Shown piece after piece: positions 3,323 through 27,232 of a stretch of 64,000 nt of DNA. The notes below the pieces were generated by a model that was not told the origin of the DNA, made no database searches, and saw only the letters and a program-made list of their open reading frames with translations. This DNA comes from Crossiella equi (GTDB lineage: Bacteria > Actinomycetota > Actinomycetes > Mycobacteriales > Pseudonocardiaceae): the NCBI RefSeq assembly GCF_017876755.1, contig NZ_JAGIOO010000001.1, positions 6,867,786 through 6,931,785 of the forward strand, read 5' to 3'. A program made the translations under genes and the position numbers. Each line of letters starts with the position of its first letter. Position 1 is the first letter of the stretch.

Positions 3323-5902
3323 GTGGTTTCAGACAGGCGGCCCGGCGAGGACCGTGGGACTGGCAGGCCGCGTGGCGACAAGCCGCCTTACGGCCGTACT
3401 GGTCACGGTGACCGGCAGGGATACGGAGACAACCGCAGGCAAGGCGGGTACCGAGACGCGCAGTCGGGTGACCGGCGTGAGCGCGGCGGATCCGGCTATG
3501 GCCGAGGCGGAGAGCGACAGGATCGGAACTTCGGTGGGGACTCGCCTCGTGGCGGGGGCTACCGGGGTGGCGACGGCTCGCGTGGTGGCTACGGCCAGCG
3601 CGATGACCGGCCGAGGTGGAACGACCGTCGGCGTGACGACCAGGGCGGCTTCCGCGGTGACCGCGAGGACCGCGGTGGCTTCCGCAAGGACGACCGCGGT
3701 GGTGACCGGCCTGGCTACCAGAAGCGGGACGACCGGCCGCGCCGTGACGGCAAGCCCGGGTTCCGCGACGGGCGGCCCGCCGAGTCCGGCGGTGGCGGGT
3801 TCCGGCGCGATGACCAAGGTGGCCAGGGTGGTTTCCGCGGTGACCGCGAGGACCGCGGTGGCTTCCGCAGGGACGACCGCGGTGGTGACCGTGGTGGGTT
3901 CCGGCGTGACGACAGGCCTGGGTTCCGCAAGGACGACCGGGGCGGGTTCCGTCGGGACGACCGTGGTGGCCAGGGCGGCTTCCGGCGTGACGACCGCGAA
4001 GGCGGCTACCGGGGCAACCGGGACGACAACCGTGCCGGCCAGGGCTTCAAGCAGGACCGTGGGTTCCGTCGGGACGACCAGGGCGAGCGCGGGGGCTTCC
4101 GCCGCGATGACCGTGGTGGCCAGAGTGGCGACCGCGGTGGGTTCCGGCGCGATGACCGCGGCGGTGACCGTGCTGGCTTCCGCCGGGATGACCGGGGTGG
4201 CCAGGGCGGCTTCCGCAAGGACGACCGCGGCGACCGTGGTGGGTTCCGCGGCGACCGCGATGACCGTGGTGGCTTCCGCAAGGACGACCGTGGTGGCTTC
4301 CGCCGGGATGACCGCGGCGGCCAAGGCGGGTTCCGTCGGGATGACCGGGGCGGTTTCGACCGTGGCGGTGACCGCGGGGGCTTCCGGCGGGACGACCGCG
4401 GTGGCCAGGGCGGCTTCCGGGGTGACCGGGAGGAGCGCGGCGGGTTCCGGCGTGACGACAAGCCTGGGTTCCGTCGGGACGACCGGGGTGACCGTGGCGG
4501 CTTCCGCAAGGACGACCGCGGTGGCCAGGACGGGTTCCGGCGCGATGACAAGCCCGCGTTCCGCAAGGACGACCGGGACGGGCCCCGCGAGGGCGGGTTC
4601 CGGCGCGAGGACCGTGGCGACCGGGGCGGGTTCCGTCGGGACGACCGCGGTGGTGACCGTGGTGGCTTCCGCAGGGACGACCGGCCCGGGTTCCGGCGTG
4701 AGGAGCGGCCCGACCGTTCCGGTGCCGACCGGCCGCGTTACGAGAAGCCCGCATACGCCGACCGGGAAGACCGGCCCGCGCGCGAGTTCCGGCACGGGCG
4801 CACCGAGGGCGACCGGCCGCAGCGGGACCGTCCTCGTGGGCGGGATGACCGCTTCGACGCCGGTGAGCTGCGTCGCGACCAGCTCGAGGAGCTCGTCGAG
4901 CCCGAGCTGCCCGCCGACCTCGACCCAAGCGAGCTCGACGCGGGTGTGCGCTCGGACCTGAAGACGCTGTCCAAGAGCCTGTCCGAGCTGGTGTCCAAGC
5001 ACCTGATCATGGCGGGGCGCCTCATCGACGAGGAGCCCGAGCAGGCGTTGGCGCACGCGCGGTTCGCGCGGCGGAAGGCGTCGCGGATCGGGCTGGTGCG
5101 GGAGGCGACCGGGTTGGCCGCCTACCACGCCGGGGAGTGGTCCGAGGCGCTGGCCGAGCTGCGTGCCGCGCGGCGGATGACCGGCAGCTCCGGGCACCTG
5201 GCCGTCATGGCCGACTGCGAGCGGGCCCTGGGCCGTCCGGAGCGGGCCCTGGAGCTGGCCAAGTCGCCCGAGGCCGGGCGGCTGAGCCCTGACGAGGCCG
5301 TCGAGCTGCGCATCGTCGCGGCCGGGGCCCGGCGGGACCTCGGTGAGCTGGACGCCGCCGTGGTCGCGCTGCAGGGTGCCGACCTGGACCCGAAGAAGCG
5401 GGACCCGTGGAGCGCGCGCCTGTTCTACGCCTACGCGGACAACCTCGCGGCGGTCGGGCGCACCGACGAGGCCATCCAGTGGTTCATCTCGGCTGCCGAG
5501 GCGGACGACGAGGGTGAGACCGACGCCGCCGAGCGTGCCATCGAGCTCGGGGCCGGGCCCGTTGTGCCGGTCGAGGAAGACCTCGAGGGTGATGCTGACG
5601 AGGCGGGCGACGTCGAGGGTGCTGAGGCCCGGGACGACGCCGCTGAGGGTGCCGAGGACGACGACGCCGAGGACGACGACGCCGAGGACGACGACGCTGA
5701 CAAGGGCGCCGACGACAAGGGTGTCGCGGACGAGGCCGTGGTCGTGGAGGCGCCCGCGGCTGAGGTCGCTGCGGCTGAGGGCACTGGAGCCGTTGAGTCG
5801 GAGACCGAGGTCGAGGCCGCCGGTGCGGACTCGGCTGAGGGTGCCGACAAGGCCGTCGAGGACAAGGCTGCCGAGGCCAAGGACGAGGAGAAGGGCCGGT
5901 AG
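3323..5902 (+). CDS. Arg/Gly/Asp-repeat protein with TPR-like domain (Rv1691-type)
   Basis: About 859 residues in three parts. Residues 1 to ~505 are a low-complexity, probably disordered tract of degenerate GGFRRDDRGG-type units (dozens of copies), rich in Gly, Arg and Asp and resembling RGG boxes that bind RNA. Residues ~510-750 are alpha-helical, TPR-like, with Ala/Leu-rich helix pairs; this matches the size and position of mycobacterial Rv1691. Residues ~755-859 form an acidic tail with a repeated AEDDD unit. The reading frame is open upstream into the 5S gene, so the start was set at GTG 3323, which has GGAGG five bases before it (TTG 3320 is an alternative). Six bases separate it from the HAD gene. 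The molecular role is unknown; RNA or ribosome binding is an inference from composition and its place after the rRNA operon. Confidence 0.8.
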   Translation: MVSDRRPGEDRGTGRPRGDKPPYGRTGHGDRQGYGDNRRQGGYRDAQSGDRRERGGSGYGRGGERQDRNFGGDSPRGGGYRGGDGSRGGYGQRDDRPRWNDRRRDDQGGFRGDREDRGGFRKDDRGGDRPGYQKRDDRPRRDGKPGFRDGRPAESGGGGFRRDDQGGQGGFRGDREDRGGFRRDDRGGDRGGFRRDDRPGFRKDDRGGFRRDDRGGQGGFRRDDREGGYRGNRDDNRAGQGFKQDRGFRRDDQGERGGFRRDDRGGQSGDRGGFRRDDRGGDRAGFRRDDRGGQGGFRKDDRGDRGGFRGDRDDRGGFRKDDRGGFRRDDRGGQGGFRRDDRGGFDRGGDRGGFRRDDRGGQGGFRGDREERGGFRRDDKPGFRRDDRGDRGGFRKDDRGGQDGFRRDDKPAFRKDDRDGPREGGFRREDRGDRGGFRRDDRGGDRGGFRRDDRPGFRREERPDRSGADRPRYEKPAYADREDRPAREFRHGRTEGDRPQRDRPRGRDDRFDAGELRRDQLEELVEPELPADLDPSELDAGVRSDLKTLSKSLSELVSKHLIMAGRLIDEEPEQALAHARFARRKASRIGLVREATGLAAYHAGEWSEALAELRAARRMTGSSGHLAVMADCERALGRPERALELAKSPEAGRLSPDEAVELRIVAAGARRDLGELDAAVVALQGADLDPKKRDPWSARLFYAYADNLAAVGRTDEAIQWFISAAEADDEGETDAAERAIELGAGPVVPVEEDLEGDADEAGDVEGAEARDDAAEGAEDDDAEDDDAEDDDADKGADDKGVADEAVVVEAPAAEVAAAEGTGAVESETEVEAAGADSAEGADKAVEDKAAEAKDEEKGR

Positions 5903-23958: not shown

Positions 23959-24729
23959 ATGATCGCCGCACCCACCGGGCCCCTGCCGAAACTGCTGGCC
24001 AGCACCGCGGCCGCCGGGCAGGGCATGTACAGCATGGTCGTGGCCGACACGGACGCGGAAGTCCGTGCCGCGCAACGGCTGCGGCACCGCGTCTTCGCCG
24101 AGGAGCTCGGCGCGCGCCTGGCCGGACCGTCCGGAGTGGACGTCGACGGGCTGGACGGGCACTGTGACCACCTGCTGATCAAGTCCGAGCCGAGTGGCGA
24201 GGTGGTCGGCACCTACCGCATCCTGTCGCCCTGGGCCGCGCGCCGCCGGGGCGGGCTCTACGCGGACGGCGAGTTCCGGCTGGGGGCCTTGGATGATCTT
24301 CGACCGTCGCTGGTGGAGCTCGGCCGGTCCTGTGTGGCCCCCGAGCACCGCAACGGCAGCGTCATCGGCCTCATGTGGGCCGGGATCTTCAGGTACGTCG
24401 CCCTGGTCGGGGCCCGCTGGGTGGCCGGTTGCGCCTCGATCCCGCTGGTCGACGGGGGTCTGCGCGCCGCCGGGGTGCGCGATGTCGTCCTGTCCCGCTC
24501 GCCCGCGCCCGCCGAGTACCGCGTCACACCCCGGAACCCGTGGCGGCACAAGGACGTTGTCCGGGGTAGAGAGGGGATCGCGTTGCCACCACTGATGCGG
24601 GGCTACCTGAGGCTGGGGGCGTGGGCGTGTGGGGAGCCCGCCCTGGACCCGGAGTTCGGCTGCGCGGACTTCTTCCTGTTGCTGGCCGTGGACCGGATGG
24701 ATCCACGCTACTCGAGGAGGTTCCAGTGA
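23959..24729 (+). CDS. OlsB-type ornithine N-acyltransferase (GNAT fold)
   Basis: About 256 residues. The segments EVRAAQRLRHRVFAEELGAR, CDHLLIK, GTYRIL and VELGRSCVAPEHRN belong to the hemolysin/OlsB acyltransferase family, which joins a 3-hydroxyacyl-ACP chain to ornithine in the first step of ornithine-lipid synthesis. ATG 23959 puts the conserved core about 35 residues in; the frame is open upstream to 23863, so an earlier GTG is possible. It overlaps the next acyltransferase by four bases. The specific substrate is inferred from this pairing. Confidence 0.82.
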   Translation: MIAAPTGPLPKLLASTAAAGQGMYSMVVADTDAEVRAAQRLRHRVFAEELGARLAGPSGVDVDGLDGHCDHLLIKSEPSGEVVGTYRILSPWAARRRGGLYADGEFRLGALDDLRPSLVELGRSCVAPEHRNGSVIGLMWAGIFRYVALVGARWVAGCASIPLVDGGLRAAGVRDVVLSRSPAPAEYRVTPRNPWRHKDVVRGREGIALPPLMRGYLRLGAWACGEPALDPEFGCADFFLLLAVDRMDPRYSRRFQ

Positions 24730-25667
24730 CCGCGAGGCGGCGCAAGCCCTTCAAGTGGACGCCGTTCACCCCGTGCGACCCGAGCTGCATCCCCAGCCGG
24801 GACGGCGAGCCCGTGGTGTCCCGGCTGGAACGGGCCCGCAGGCTGCTGCGCCTGGCCGGGTTCCTCGCCGTGGCCGTGCCGGTGTCCTGGTTCTTCGGCC
24901 GCATGTCACCGCGAAGACGCGGCCGGCTGGTGCAGGCCGGGGCGCGGGCCATGCTGCGCGCCCTGGACATCCGGCTGACCGTGCGCGGCACGCTGCCCAG
25001 CACGCCCACGCTGATCGTGGCCAACCACCTGTCCTGGGTGGACGGGCTGGTCATGCTCGCCACCCAGCCGCTCTACCAGGTCGCCAAGGCCGAGATCCGC
25101 TACATCCCGCTCTTCGGCGGTCTCGGCACCCGCGCGGGCACGGTGTGGATCAAGCGCGACAAGATGTCCCAGCTGCCGGGCGTGGTGGAGAAGATGCGCG
25201 TCCGGCTGGCCGAGGGCGCCCACGTCGCGGTCTTCCCCGAGGGGACCACGCGCTGCACCCCCGACGGCGCGGTGATGCGCCGGGCCAGCTTCCAGGCAGC
25301 CCTGGACGCGGGCGCCGCGGTGCAGCCCGCCCGGGTGGAGTTCTTCGGGCGGGAGGGGCGGCCGAGCACCATGCCCACCTTCATCGGCCGCGACGACCTG
25401 CTGCCCTCGATCGGGCGGGTGCTGCGGGCCCGGGGGCTGCACGCGACGGTGACCTTCGGCCAGGCCATCCCGGCCGGGACGGCGGGCACGCGCAAGGAGC
25501 TCGCGGCCCTGGCCAAGGACGGTTTCGACCGGCTCGGCGGGGAGGTGGCGGCGCGGGTGCCGGAGGAGGCGTTGGCCGCGACCGAGCCCACCGGCGCCGA
25601 GGGGGCCGGAGCCACCGGACGGCCCGGCCCGGCCGTCGAACGCGAGCGGGAGCTGGACGCCGCCTGA
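24726..25667 (+). CDS. 1-acyl-glycerol-3-phosphate acyltransferase-like (OlsA type)
   Basis: 313 residues. The acyltransferase block I motif is NHLSWVDGL (HX4D) and block III is FPEGTTRCTPDG. One N-terminal membrane helix is at about residues 38-60. A CDPSCIP segment near residue 15 adds two Cys. GTG 24726 is coupled to the OlsB-type gene, and OlsB+OlsA together make ornithine lipid. A housekeeping PlsC role is the alternative. The C-terminal ~50 residues are Ala/Glu-rich and probably flexible. Confidence 0.85.
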   Translation: MTARRRKPFKWTPFTPCDPSCIPSRDGEPVVSRLERARRLLRLAGFLAVAVPVSWFFGRMSPRRRGRLVQAGARAMLRALDIRLTVRGTLPSTPTLIVANHLSWVDGLVMLATQPLYQVAKAEIRYIPLFGGLGTRAGTVWIKRDKMSQLPGVVEKMRVRLAEGAHVAVFPEGTTRCTPDGAVMRRASFQAALDAGAAVQPARVEFFGREGRPSTMPTFIGRDDLLPSIGRVLRARGLHATVTFGQAIPAGTAGTRKELAALAKDGFDRLGGEVAARVPEEALAATEPTGAEGAGATGRPGPAVERERELDAA

Positions 25668-25678
25668 GACGGCAACCC

Positions 25679-25710
25679 CGTGGCCGCTCCGAACACCCGG
25701 AGCGGCCACG
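25679..25710 (+). terminator. Terminator of the acyltransferase operon
   Basis: A perfect 13-bp stem, CGTGGCCGCTCCG / CGGAGCGGCCACG, with a six-base loop lies 11 bases after the stop codon. Its last base begins the repeat array. Confidence 0.85.
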
Positions 25711-25888
25711 GTGTACTGGGCCGGCCAACACGGTGTACTGGGCCGGCCAACACGAGGTACGGGACCGGCCAACACGGGGTACCGGATTGGCCAACACGGG
25801 GTACGAAACCGGCAAACACGCCGGTGGGGGTGGTCTTGGTCGGCGTGTTTGCCGATCTCGTACCTCGTGTTTGCCGATCTCGTACGCC
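25710..25888. repeat. Array of 22-bp repeats, five direct and two inverted
   Basis: Five head-to-tail 22-bp units start at 25710, 25732, 25754, 25776 and 25798, with the shared pattern GGGGTACN4CCGGCCAACAC. The first two are identical and later ones diverge. After a 25-base spacer (25820-25844) two units in opposite orientation follow (25845-25866 and 25867-25888). Unit 5 and the first inverted unit form a hairpin of about 23 bp, of which CGGCAAACACGCCG/CGGCGTGTTTGCCG is perfect. The period of 22 is not a multiple of three, and the array lies between convergent genes flanked by two other hairpins, so it is non-coding. Function unknown. Confidence 0.92.
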
Positions 25889-25903
25889 TCGGCGCCTGGA
25901 GGC

Positions 25904-25941
25904 GACGGTGGGCCGCCGGGAGATCCCAGCGGCCCACCGTC
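25904..25941. terminator. Terminator of the amidase gene (possibly bidirectional)
   Basis: A perfect 13-bp stem, GACGGTGGGCCGC / GCGGCCCACCGTC, with a 12-base loop lies 25 bases downstream of the amidase stop on the minus strand. Confidence 0.8.
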
Positions 25942-25966
25942 TTCTCGGAGTGGTCCGGACGAGCGC

Positions 25967-27058
25967 TCAGCGGAGCAGGTGCTGCCAGGTGAGGTGGTCC
26001 AGCTGGCCGGTGGCGGGCAGGCGGTAGGCCGTCTGCGCGTCCCGGACCGCCTGCTCTGTCGGCCCGTCGTACTCGCCGGTGGCCGGGCCGCGCATGCCCG
26101 CCGCGACCAGCAGCAGCTGGGCGGCGTGCACCGCCTCGCCCCGGTCGCCCCGGCGCAGCGCGCCCGGTACCAGCACCGGCCAGGTCTCCGCGCCGAACAG
26201 GCCCGTCTCGGGCAGCCCGGTGGCGGCCTCCACACGTTTGCCCGCGGCCTCGGTGCGCGGGTCGAACATGCCGTCCACCGGGACCTCGGCGTACCCGGCG
26301 TTGCGCAGCAGGCGCTGGGCCACCACGACCTTCTCGCTCCGGTCACCCGGTTGCAGCAGCGGCCAGACCACCGGGTCCAGGACCTTCTCCCGGCTGCCCA
26401 TCGCCGTGGCCACCGCGCGGCGCAGCTCCGGCAGGCGCCCGTACAGGACGTTGCCCGGGCAGGCCGTGTTGTTGAAGTCGCGGTGGCCGAAGATCTGGCT
26501 GGTCGCGATGCCGTACTGCTGGCACATGTACTTGCACAGCGCCACCAGCGAGTTCCACTGGGCCGTGGTCGGGCCGACGCTGGTGTAGAGGCCCTCGTTC
26601 TCGATGCCCAGCGCCACGTTGTTCTGGCCCGAGGCGTGCGCGCTGACCACGTGCCGGGCACCGGCGCGCAGCACCTCCAGGCTGCGGTGGCGGCCCTCGG
26701 TGATGTGCCCGCCGCGGCTGTTGGTGAAGTGCTGGCCGGTGTCGATCCAGCCGTTGGAGTCCATGTGGTAGTTCTGGATGGACCGGGACAGCGCGAAGGC
26801 GTGCGCGAGGCTGTAGTCGGTGCTGTTCGCGGTGGCCGTGTGGTGCACGATGATCTTGACCGGCTTGCTGGCCAGCAGCGAGATCGCGCCGCTGGCGGGC
26901 CGGGCGTTCCAGGCCGCGGTGCCGTGGATGGTGGGCGCCAGCTCGCTCGCTCCGGCGAACAGGGGATCGGCTAGGCCGAGTGCCCCGGCCGCGGTCACGG
27001 TGAGTCCGCCGCGTAAGAACGCGCGGCGGCCGAACGGGTGGGGTGCAGGGTTCGACAT
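25967..27058 (-). CDS. Tat-exported N-acetylmuramoyl-L-alanine amidase with two PG-binding domains
   Basis: 363 residues; cleaves the lactyl-alanine bond of peptidoglycan outside the cell. The N-terminus has a twin-arginine signal (GRRAFLRGG then a hydrophobic stretch). The Amidase_2/PGRP domain (residues ~60-235) carries the zinc ligands His72 or 73 in VHHTATA, His in FGHRDFN and Cys in TACPGN, with GIENEG typical of the fold. Two peptidoglycan-binding type-1 repeats follow (each with a VxxAQxLL-type helix). ATG 27058 has GAGGGAG eight bases upstream. Confidence 0.92.
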   Translation of the reverse strand: MSNPAPHPFGRRAFLRGGLTVTAAGALGLADPLFAGASELAPTIHGTAAWNARPASGAISLLASKPVKIIVHHTATANSTDYSLAHAFALSRSIQNYHMDSNGWIDTGQHFTNSRGGHITEGRHRSLEVLRAGARHVVSAHASGQNNVALGIENEGLYTSVGPTTAQWNSLVALCKYMCQQYGIATSQIFGHRDFNNTACPGNVLYGRLPELRRAVATAMGSREKVLDPVVWPLLQPGDRSEKVVVAQRLLRNAGYAEVPVDGMFDPRTEAAGKRVEAATGLPETGLFGAETWPVLVPGALRRGDRGEAVHAAQLLLVAAGMRGPATGEYDGPTEQAVRDAQTAYRLPATGQLDHLTWQHLLR

Positions 27059-27232
27059 GAGGACGACTCCCTCGTCTTGGGGGCAGGGAACCCCAGAGAA
27101 GTGGGTCGTTTGACGGTAAGAGCTGGTTCCGTATCCGGTAAGGGCCAAATGGGTTGGGAACTTTCGAGATCCTGTATCAACGTGTCGCTGTCTAACGTTC
27201 GGTGGCGTATGTGCTAGGGCCCCCGACCCACG

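Follow-up and report, generated by a model that had tools for sequence, protein, structure and literature searches.

Arrays of an oriented 22-bp repeat stand at gene ends in Crossiella

Genomes of Crossiella, a genus of soil bacteria, carry a family of oriented 22-bp repeats that sits just behind stop codons, is enriched between convergent genes, and is laid out in same-strand blocks whose facing arms meet at a preferred distance. Covariation between the arms is nearly lacking, the units are constrained at one slot shared between species, and whole arrays are present in one sister species and absent from the other. What could such arrays do at gene ends? The best reading, which we put forward tentatively and which may well prove wrong, is that they are phased sites for a putative DNA-binding protein that would create a two-way boundary there. 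The array described first lies in a window of 64,000 nucleotides from the Crossiella equi genome (G000; 9,440,186 bp, one contig). The congeners compared with it are G001 to G004, of which G002 is Crossiella sp. S99.2, a draft assembly. The window array and its immediate surroundings are as follows.

24726..25667, + strand: acyltransferase gene, stop codon toward the array (gene call; PF01553, E 1.7e-20)
25678..25711, no strand: left terminator-like hairpin, perfect 14-bp stem, 6-nt loop, no T-run
25713..25822, + strand: five direct 22-bp units, GTAC-N5-CGGC(C/A)AACACG-N2; unit 4 has one core mismatch
25823..25841, no strand: array centre between the arms; the spacer between cores is 25820-25844, 25 bases
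25842..25885, − strand: two inverted 22-bp units, cores 25845-25863 and 25867-25885
25899..25946, no strand: right terminator-like hairpin, perfect 13-bp core 25904-25916/25929-25941
25967..27148, − strand: N-acetylmuramoyl-L-alanine amidase gene with peptidoglycan-binding domain (PF01510/PF01471)

A sequence-only reading of this DNA had described five direct 22-bp units, a 25-base spacer and two inverted units between convergent genes. Our coordinates (25713-25885) agree, as does Tandem Repeats Finder (period 22, 5.2 copies, then period 22, 1.9 copies), and the acyltransferase and amidase genes do face each other; the amidase start codon is uncertain, and our codon-based caller places it at 26998. 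The + strand cores begin at 25713, 25735, 25757, 25779 (the one with the mismatch) and 25801, and the spacing from + to − unit start is 41 bp, inside the family's modal range of 40-43. The first two units, said to be identical, are so in the CACGGTGTACTGGGCCGGCCAA register; in the GTAC register they share 20 of 22 bases. Similarly, the two flanking hairpins had been called perfect 13-bp terminators. This describes the right-hand stem, which is set within a longer imperfect one; the left stem has 14 bp (25678-25691/25698-25711, its 3' arm continuing into the repeat), and neither hairpin has a T-run. A scan for a stem plus T-run, as in an intrinsic terminator, found none at window positions 25500-26100. 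Folded as either strand, the 281-nt array region is much more stable than its shuffles (z -10.8 and -11.4). Because an ordinary GC-rich hairpin stands on either side, the window array is not needed there as a terminator, and this counts against the boundary reading. At up to three mismatches the window holds 25 unit matches, seven of which are the window array, a total that was not attained in any of 100 shuffles.

In the relatives the gene next after the amidase gene is of the DedA/VTT type. It is missing in G000 (window 25667-25967 compared with loci L175-L178), appears by eye to be shortened in G004 and, in G001, where the copy was assigned with Pfam, overlaps the amidase end by 26 bp. Elsewhere in the window, positions 3549-4683 hold dense tandem repeats of period 24-36 inside an ORF called at 3323-5902, and repeats that look similar run in L189, L193, L195 and L197.

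L numbers denote fetched loci; the samples from G000 and G001 were selected for carrying the motif. The G000 sample comprises 60 stretches out of about 65 loci compiled among the matches listed, and omits two compiled loci near 8.96 and 9.00 Mb together with unlisted ones; the G001 sample comprises 40 stretches, about 70 loci being found among the matches listed. Fetched loci were scanned with a position matrix, with reversed sequence as control. In the G000 loci plus the window the scan gave 314 units (control, 10); in the G001 loci it gave 335 (control, 3). These form 139 clusters, 128 of them with at least two units; the arrays analysed number 43 in G000, where 20 composite elements were set apart, and 65 in G001. 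Genes were called with our own codon-based caller, so gene start positions are rough.

The oriented unit is GTAC-N5-CGGC(C/A)AACAC-N3, 22 bp long. In middle units, whose own detection was not required, 97% of 15 core positions are kept in G000 (89 units) and 95% in G001 (97 units), base 20 being free; the N5 stretch of these units differs pairwise by 0.52 and 0.39, respectively. Neighbours on the same strand are spaced by 22 bp in 151 of 151 cases in G000 and 204 of 213 in G001. Units are organized in same-strand blocks, with zero to two direction changes per array. Facing arms stand 40-43 bp apart in 38 of 57 cases (13/20 in G000, 25/37 in G001), and outward-facing arms vary in distance, falling in that range in 1 of 11 (G000) and 1 of 14 (G001). 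The core match falls outward from the centre: the nearest unit scores 14.5 of 15 in G000, the third 11.8 and the fourth 8.0, and the corresponding values in G001 are 14.6, 10.6 and 6.2. A 10.5-bp periodicity of arm spacings was sought in sets outside the 40-43 peak, with P between 0.06 and 0.52, and among outward arms, with P 0.04 and 0.25; helical periodicity of arm spacings other than 40-43 was set aside as too weak, and this weakness counts against the boundary reading.

CRISPR, already dismissed in the sequence-only reading, does not apply: units abut at 22 bp, their variable stretches are 5 bases and 2-3 bases long, and there are no unique spacers between the repeats. Expansion by unit duplication, suggested there too, does take place, as a minority process. 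Adjacent units have identical N5 in 17 of 151 pairs in G000, against 2.4% between loci, and in 31 of 204 in G001, against 10.7%, with identical adjacent pairs in excess in G000. The mean N5 match of adjacent units is 2.49 of 5 in G000 and 3.37 in G001, and between loci 2.36 and 3.29. Thus, local duplication occurs and does not dominate.

Could the window array be an accident of this one spot? Chance or purely local duplication draws support from the orthologous slot, where by eye, over about 620 bp, none of the four congeners has an array beside the amidase gene. Against it stand hundreds of copies in the same genome and in three congeners, with controls near zero, and we regard it as exceedingly improbable. 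The own-genome search at up to two mismatches returned 176 and 180 matches (reversed control, 45 and 42). A looser pattern gave 293 in G000, 721 in G001, 212 in G002, 300 in G004 and 6 in G003, with 0-1 per strand in the control; the G002 count depends on the pattern because that genome also uses a variant unit. The sequence-only reading had named as its refutation a motif confined to this place and missing in close relatives, and the searches decided in its favour. The exact tandem pattern is present in four of five Crossiella genomes and, once, in one of 385 other genomes of the family (G291), a search that would miss diverged versions in other genera. Across wider genome contigs it hit seven stretches, four of them from Crossiella sp. 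S99.2 and each identical to a G002 locus over 120 nt, and in viral contigs none. Outside Crossiella, each match (Mycobacterium, Myxococcales, Hymenobacter, G291) stands alone and comprises one or two units. By the exact pattern, then, the family is restricted to Crossiella but for one isolated match in its family, a narrower clade than the sequence-only reading had guessed when it proposed a clade-specific intergenic repeat. The near-absence from G003 is unlikely to be an assembly artefact, since its contigs cross the slots, where the gene ends are intact, and arrays are recovered from the draft G002. Among the best matches in the open-licence literature there was no description of a Crossiella 22-bp array family, and no paper on intergenic repeats in Pseudonocardiaceae; the RepRanger paper (PMC12306157) nowhere names Crossiella or Pseudonocardia in its main text.

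The arrays are tied to gene ends. All 128 multi-unit clusters lie outside called genes or reach into them by no more than 15 bp, in keeping with the noncoding character assigned to the window array from its sequence; six of 11 single-unit hits overlap a called gene, which may be chance. The array edge lies a median of 17 bp from a stop codon (n = 127; at most 30 bp in 87) and a median of 139 bp from a start codon (n = 55). Array-bearing spaces are 17 convergent, 23 co-directional and 3 divergent in G000 (n = 43), against a background of 101, 333 and 183 (n = 617); in G001 they are 25, 20 and 3 (n = 48), against 60, 197 and 103 (n = 360). The background consists of intergenic spaces of at least 40 bp in the same loci, array-bearing ones included. 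Convergent spaces are enriched (Fisher, 1.3e-4 in G000 and 5.9e-10 in G001) and divergent ones depleted (3.9e-4 and 1.1e-4). The tabulation of copy number and gene-end position that the sequence-only reading had called for thus gives a high-copy, convergent-enriched family. Stop codon usage beside arrays is altered: in G001, TAA accounts for 26 of 54, against 11 of 175 at other convergent ends, and in G000, TAG accounts for 3 of 45, against 108 of 353. Autoregulation of a binding protein from the divergent arrays was considered and rejected; by eye, the flanking genes had nothing obvious in common.

Where an array lies within 60 bp of a gene end, the two are separated by less than 30 nt in 52 of 54 cases in G001 and 34 of 46 in G000, which leaves little room for another terminator. 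At two slots, by eye, an array in G001 corresponds to an ordinary hairpin in the G000 ortholog. We count two further observations against the boundary reading: among the 12 longer gaps between stop codon and array in G000, seven also contain a hairpin, and array-free gene pairs exist in G003 and at other orthologous slots.

Do the arrays act as RNA? Once transcribed, the two arms could pair into one long hairpin, which would end transcription or shield 3' ends, the spacing in DNA being incidental. Folding favours this: relative to shuffles, gene ends with arrays have a median z of -4.5 in G000 and -5.1 in G001, array-free convergent ends only -2.1 and -2.4. By eye, many G001 centres are themselves small palindromes, and at one gene end with an ordinary terminator in G000 the G001 array closes with a hairpin and a T-run. 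On folding one unit at a time, six of the seven in the window array reach -1.6 to -4.6 kcal/mol, like shuffles (z +0.5 to -0.9); the seventh (25735-25756) has the same core and N5 as a folded neighbour.

A conserved RNA stem should leave its mark in compensating changes; in the covariation check proposed in the sequence-only reading, one of eight tests gave a low P. For mirror units of facing arms, compared with permuted loci, covariation of N5 gave P 0.54 (G000) and 0.94 (G001), and that of N2 0.96 and 0.97. For outward arms the N2 values were 0.14 and 0.92 and the N5 values 0.45 and 0.016; the last, from G001, reflects a mirror similarity of 0.75 against 0.65 (17 pairs, 8 loci, uncorrected) and stands on the side of the RNA reading. 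The absence of covariation in the other seven tests speaks against a conserved stem. So do the G000 centres, of near-constant length and with sequences that differ between loci (19 centres, by eye), and the one-arm arrays (12 of 43 in G000, 24 of 65 in G001), some of which in G001 have their partner farther away, beyond an inserted element. Window positions 25500-26100 lack a stem plus T-run, and none of ten Rfam matches (E up to 1) attained its gathering score. On the covariation and Rfam results we rejected structured RNA, a possibility raised in the sequence-only reading, as the conserved feature, and we consider an RNA-level element unlikely.

Comparison between species reveals both turnover and constraint. 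G003 and G004 are sisters (97.3% identity over 18 kb), as are G001 and G002 (95.5%). Identity between the pairs is 88.5-88.9%, with G000 as outgroup (80-84%, from two genes). When seven G004 array slots were compared with G003, six (site 1 and slots A to E) were empty, with no units found in the G003 loci of these six, and at the seventh, site 8, both genomes carry the same decayed remnant. In G003 hardly any arrays are left. The slot A arrays of G001 and G004 match unit by unit; this array is therefore older than the split of these lineages and was lost in G003. Between the two copies, 2 of 70 core positions and 1 of 25 N5 positions have changed (3 of 95 together), against 26 of 77 in N3 and other bases (Fisher, 5.8e-8). 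The basis for constraint in place is mainly this one slot, and other comparisons are more changed: between G001 and G002, 14 of 98 core and 12 of 35 N5 positions at site 8 and 15 of 57 core positions at slot A, and between G004 and G002, 16 of 84 core positions at slot C. In less clean comparisons, some outer units are shared and the centres are replaced by lineage-specific DNA. Among G000 genes that have reciprocal best hits in the fetched G001 loci, 7 of 18 array-adjacent genes are array-adjacent in G001 too, compared with 19 of 132 other genes, in a G001 sample that is array-rich by choice.

Such turnover is equally well explained by a close rival: the arrays may be selfish, REP- or MITE-like elements, nonautonomous hairpins moved in trans by a putative transposase that recognizes the 22-bp units. 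Gene ends would then be the places where insertions are tolerated and where such an element survives best, perhaps helped by a TA/CTAG or stop-codon target preference. The six empty slots, the counts of 300 and 6 at 97.3% identity, the altered stop codon usage and the lineage-specific repeats in or between array arms (G000, G001, G002) all point this way, as does site 1. There G003 reads AACTAGAG and G004 reads AAC-TA-ACCCCACCC...GGGTGGGGT-TA-CAG, so that CTAG in the one corresponds to TA-ACCCC...GGGGT-TA in the other, which looks like a 2-bp TA duplication with inverted ends. However, the duplication is clean at only one of the six empty slots, the other five junctions differing and their gene tails being altered. 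Apart from these slots, there is a possible 2-bp duplication at L109 compared with L137. Moreover, we found no autonomous copy, the units are not simple copies of a master, given that N5 matches about as well between loci as between adjacent units, and they are constrained in place at slot A, which this rival explains less well. We take it as a serious possibility that nonetheless falls short of probable.

Attempts to name a mover were negative. The Y1 transposase of RAYT (Y1_Tnp, PF01797) has no match in G000, G003 or G004, one in G001 and three in G002, and a RAYT-driven REPIN was rejected on its absence from those three genomes. An IS630 MITE, which the TA duplication at one site had suggested, was rejected likewise: the IS630-type DDE_3 domain is absent from G001 and G002, and no 22-bp unit occurs within 1.5 kb on each side of the 16 DDE_3 loci. 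Genes between arrays were considered as an autonomous element; there are three (L126, L167, L170), and none is obviously a transposase by eye. The other period-19/20 repeats of G003 (L205, L206) had the look of degenerate repeats with no sequence relation to the family.

Slot C (L250, L251, L252, L253) has its own peculiarity. Where it carries no array (G001, G003), the convergent gene ends overlap and the last codons of the + gene come from the antisense of its neighbour; the resulting C-terminal peptide, translated by eye, is nearly identical to that of the array-bearing G004. A recent insertion that duplicated the gene-end overlap was rejected, as the tail of the G004 + gene differs by eye from the G003 overlap at 6 of 21 bases. 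This is too many for a duplicate younger than a 2.7% split, and deletion in G003 and G001 fits better. We also note that CTAG stands at the gene junction of several empty slots (L094, L194, L235, L251, L253), including three of six in G003, and that it is about eightfold rarer than expected in the G003 stretches (29 in 88 kb, expected 221).

Several lineages have further repeats of their own. G001 has a noncoding element of several hundred bp, with nested stem-loops, between 22-bp arrays at gene ends (L137, L138, L149, L154, L159, L165, L172 and others); in a comparison of 15 stretches (502-1131 bp), L137 had 284-461 bases in common with at least 11 others, at 77-90% identity. G000 has a composite repeat, mostly 350-395 bp (L075, L079, L092, L105, L110, L128 and others), with units paired about 102 bp apart. 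The fetched loci contain 20 clusters of it, in convergent spaces for 14 of the 19 that were classified, and the four copies inspected look nearly alike. Finally, a palindrome of about 64 bp occupies the centre of several G002 arrays (L192, L226, L236, L244, and more loosely L202); it was seen here in G002 only and by eye looks recently spread.

How would the boundary that we propose work? Each 22-bp unit would be the recognition site of one putative sequence-specific DNA-binding protein encoded elsewhere. The exact 22-bp step, about two helical turns, would place the sites on one face of the DNA, and the two opposed arms, about four turns apart, would face each other across a centre of about 20 bp. 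Directly after the stop codons, the resulting nucleoprotein would act as a two-way boundary that stops or slows RNA polymerase arriving from either side and so insulates convergent neighbours. We infer the protein, its binding and its effect on transcription. A protein that reads duplex DNA, as opposed to an RNA stem, is suggested because the 14-base two-block core is constrained and the 5-base gap less so, because the step is exactly 22 bp and the arm distance is held with free sequence, and because covariation is near absent. Similarly, a boundary met from either side is suggested by the position after stop codons, the short gaps and the arrays that replace ordinary hairpins, and the putative transcription-collision barrier raised in the sequence-only reading would fit the position and spacing of the arrays. 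The empty slots and the lineage-specific inserts in array centres make it probable that arrays first come in by insertion, and the wholesale loss in G003 would fit the loss of their putative reader or mover.

Extended to the genus, the proposal becomes a Crossiella genome-wide gene-boundary system, in which one putative DNA-binding protein and two-armed arrays would stop transcription from both sides at convergent ends, and which could be lost within one short branch, as in G003. We hold this extended form to be something of a long shot. Convergent genes must be kept apart, and the array is often the nearest strong feature after the stop codon; the near-total loss in one of two sisters that are 97% alike would make a natural experiment on termination and convergent interference. 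If the arrays are instead selfish, they would constitute a REP-like system with no palindromic unit and, in three of five genomes, no RAYT, and the question would be what moves them.

How do the arrays compare with known systems? As described in PMC2817692 and PMC1525189, REP/BIME elements of Enterobacteria, Pseudomonas and Stenotrophomonas are high-copy and extragenic, prefer gene ends and convergent spaces, have oriented units and lineage-specific sequences, differ from strain to strain, and have proposed roles in termination and protein binding; the REP unit is a 20-40 bp palindrome that folds alone, and BIMEs alternate its orientation at regular spacing. The Crossiella arrays are likewise high-copy, extragenic, oriented and lineage-specific, with a bias to gene ends and convergent spaces and with differences even between close relatives. 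In contrast to these accounts, a 22-bp unit by itself does not fold, units follow one another in the same orientation at an exact 22-bp step where BIMEs alternate, the arms meet at a preferred distance, and the RAYT/Y1 transposase is absent from G000, G003 and G004.

MITEs are nonautonomous transposable hairpins with inverted ends, intergenic and present or absent at orthologous sites. The Crossiella arrays share the intergenic location and the empty orthologous sites (six of seven G004 slots in G003); inverted ends with what looks like a target duplication are seen at site 1, and the other five empty slots give no clean case. They differ in that no parental transposase was found and that the units, constrained at slot A, do not descend as plain copies from one master. 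The BOX elements of Streptococcus pneumoniae are modular and intergenic, and have stem-loop potential and internal units that vary in number. Modularity, intergenic location, variable unit number and stem-loop potential recur in Crossiella, whereas here the tandem units themselves form the arms, and sequence and host are unrelated. From an intrinsic terminator the window array region (25500-26100) differs in having no GC-rich hairpin followed by a T-run. Finally, TTF-I/Sal-box arrays are oriented, repeated protein sites just after rRNA genes that can block polymerase. The Crossiella arrays resemble them in how they might work, as oriented, repeated candidate sites just after genes; they differ in being bacterial, in following many different genes and not rDNA, and in having two opposed arms. 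As the Crossiella binding protein is putative, we draw the parallel as an analogy and not as membership.
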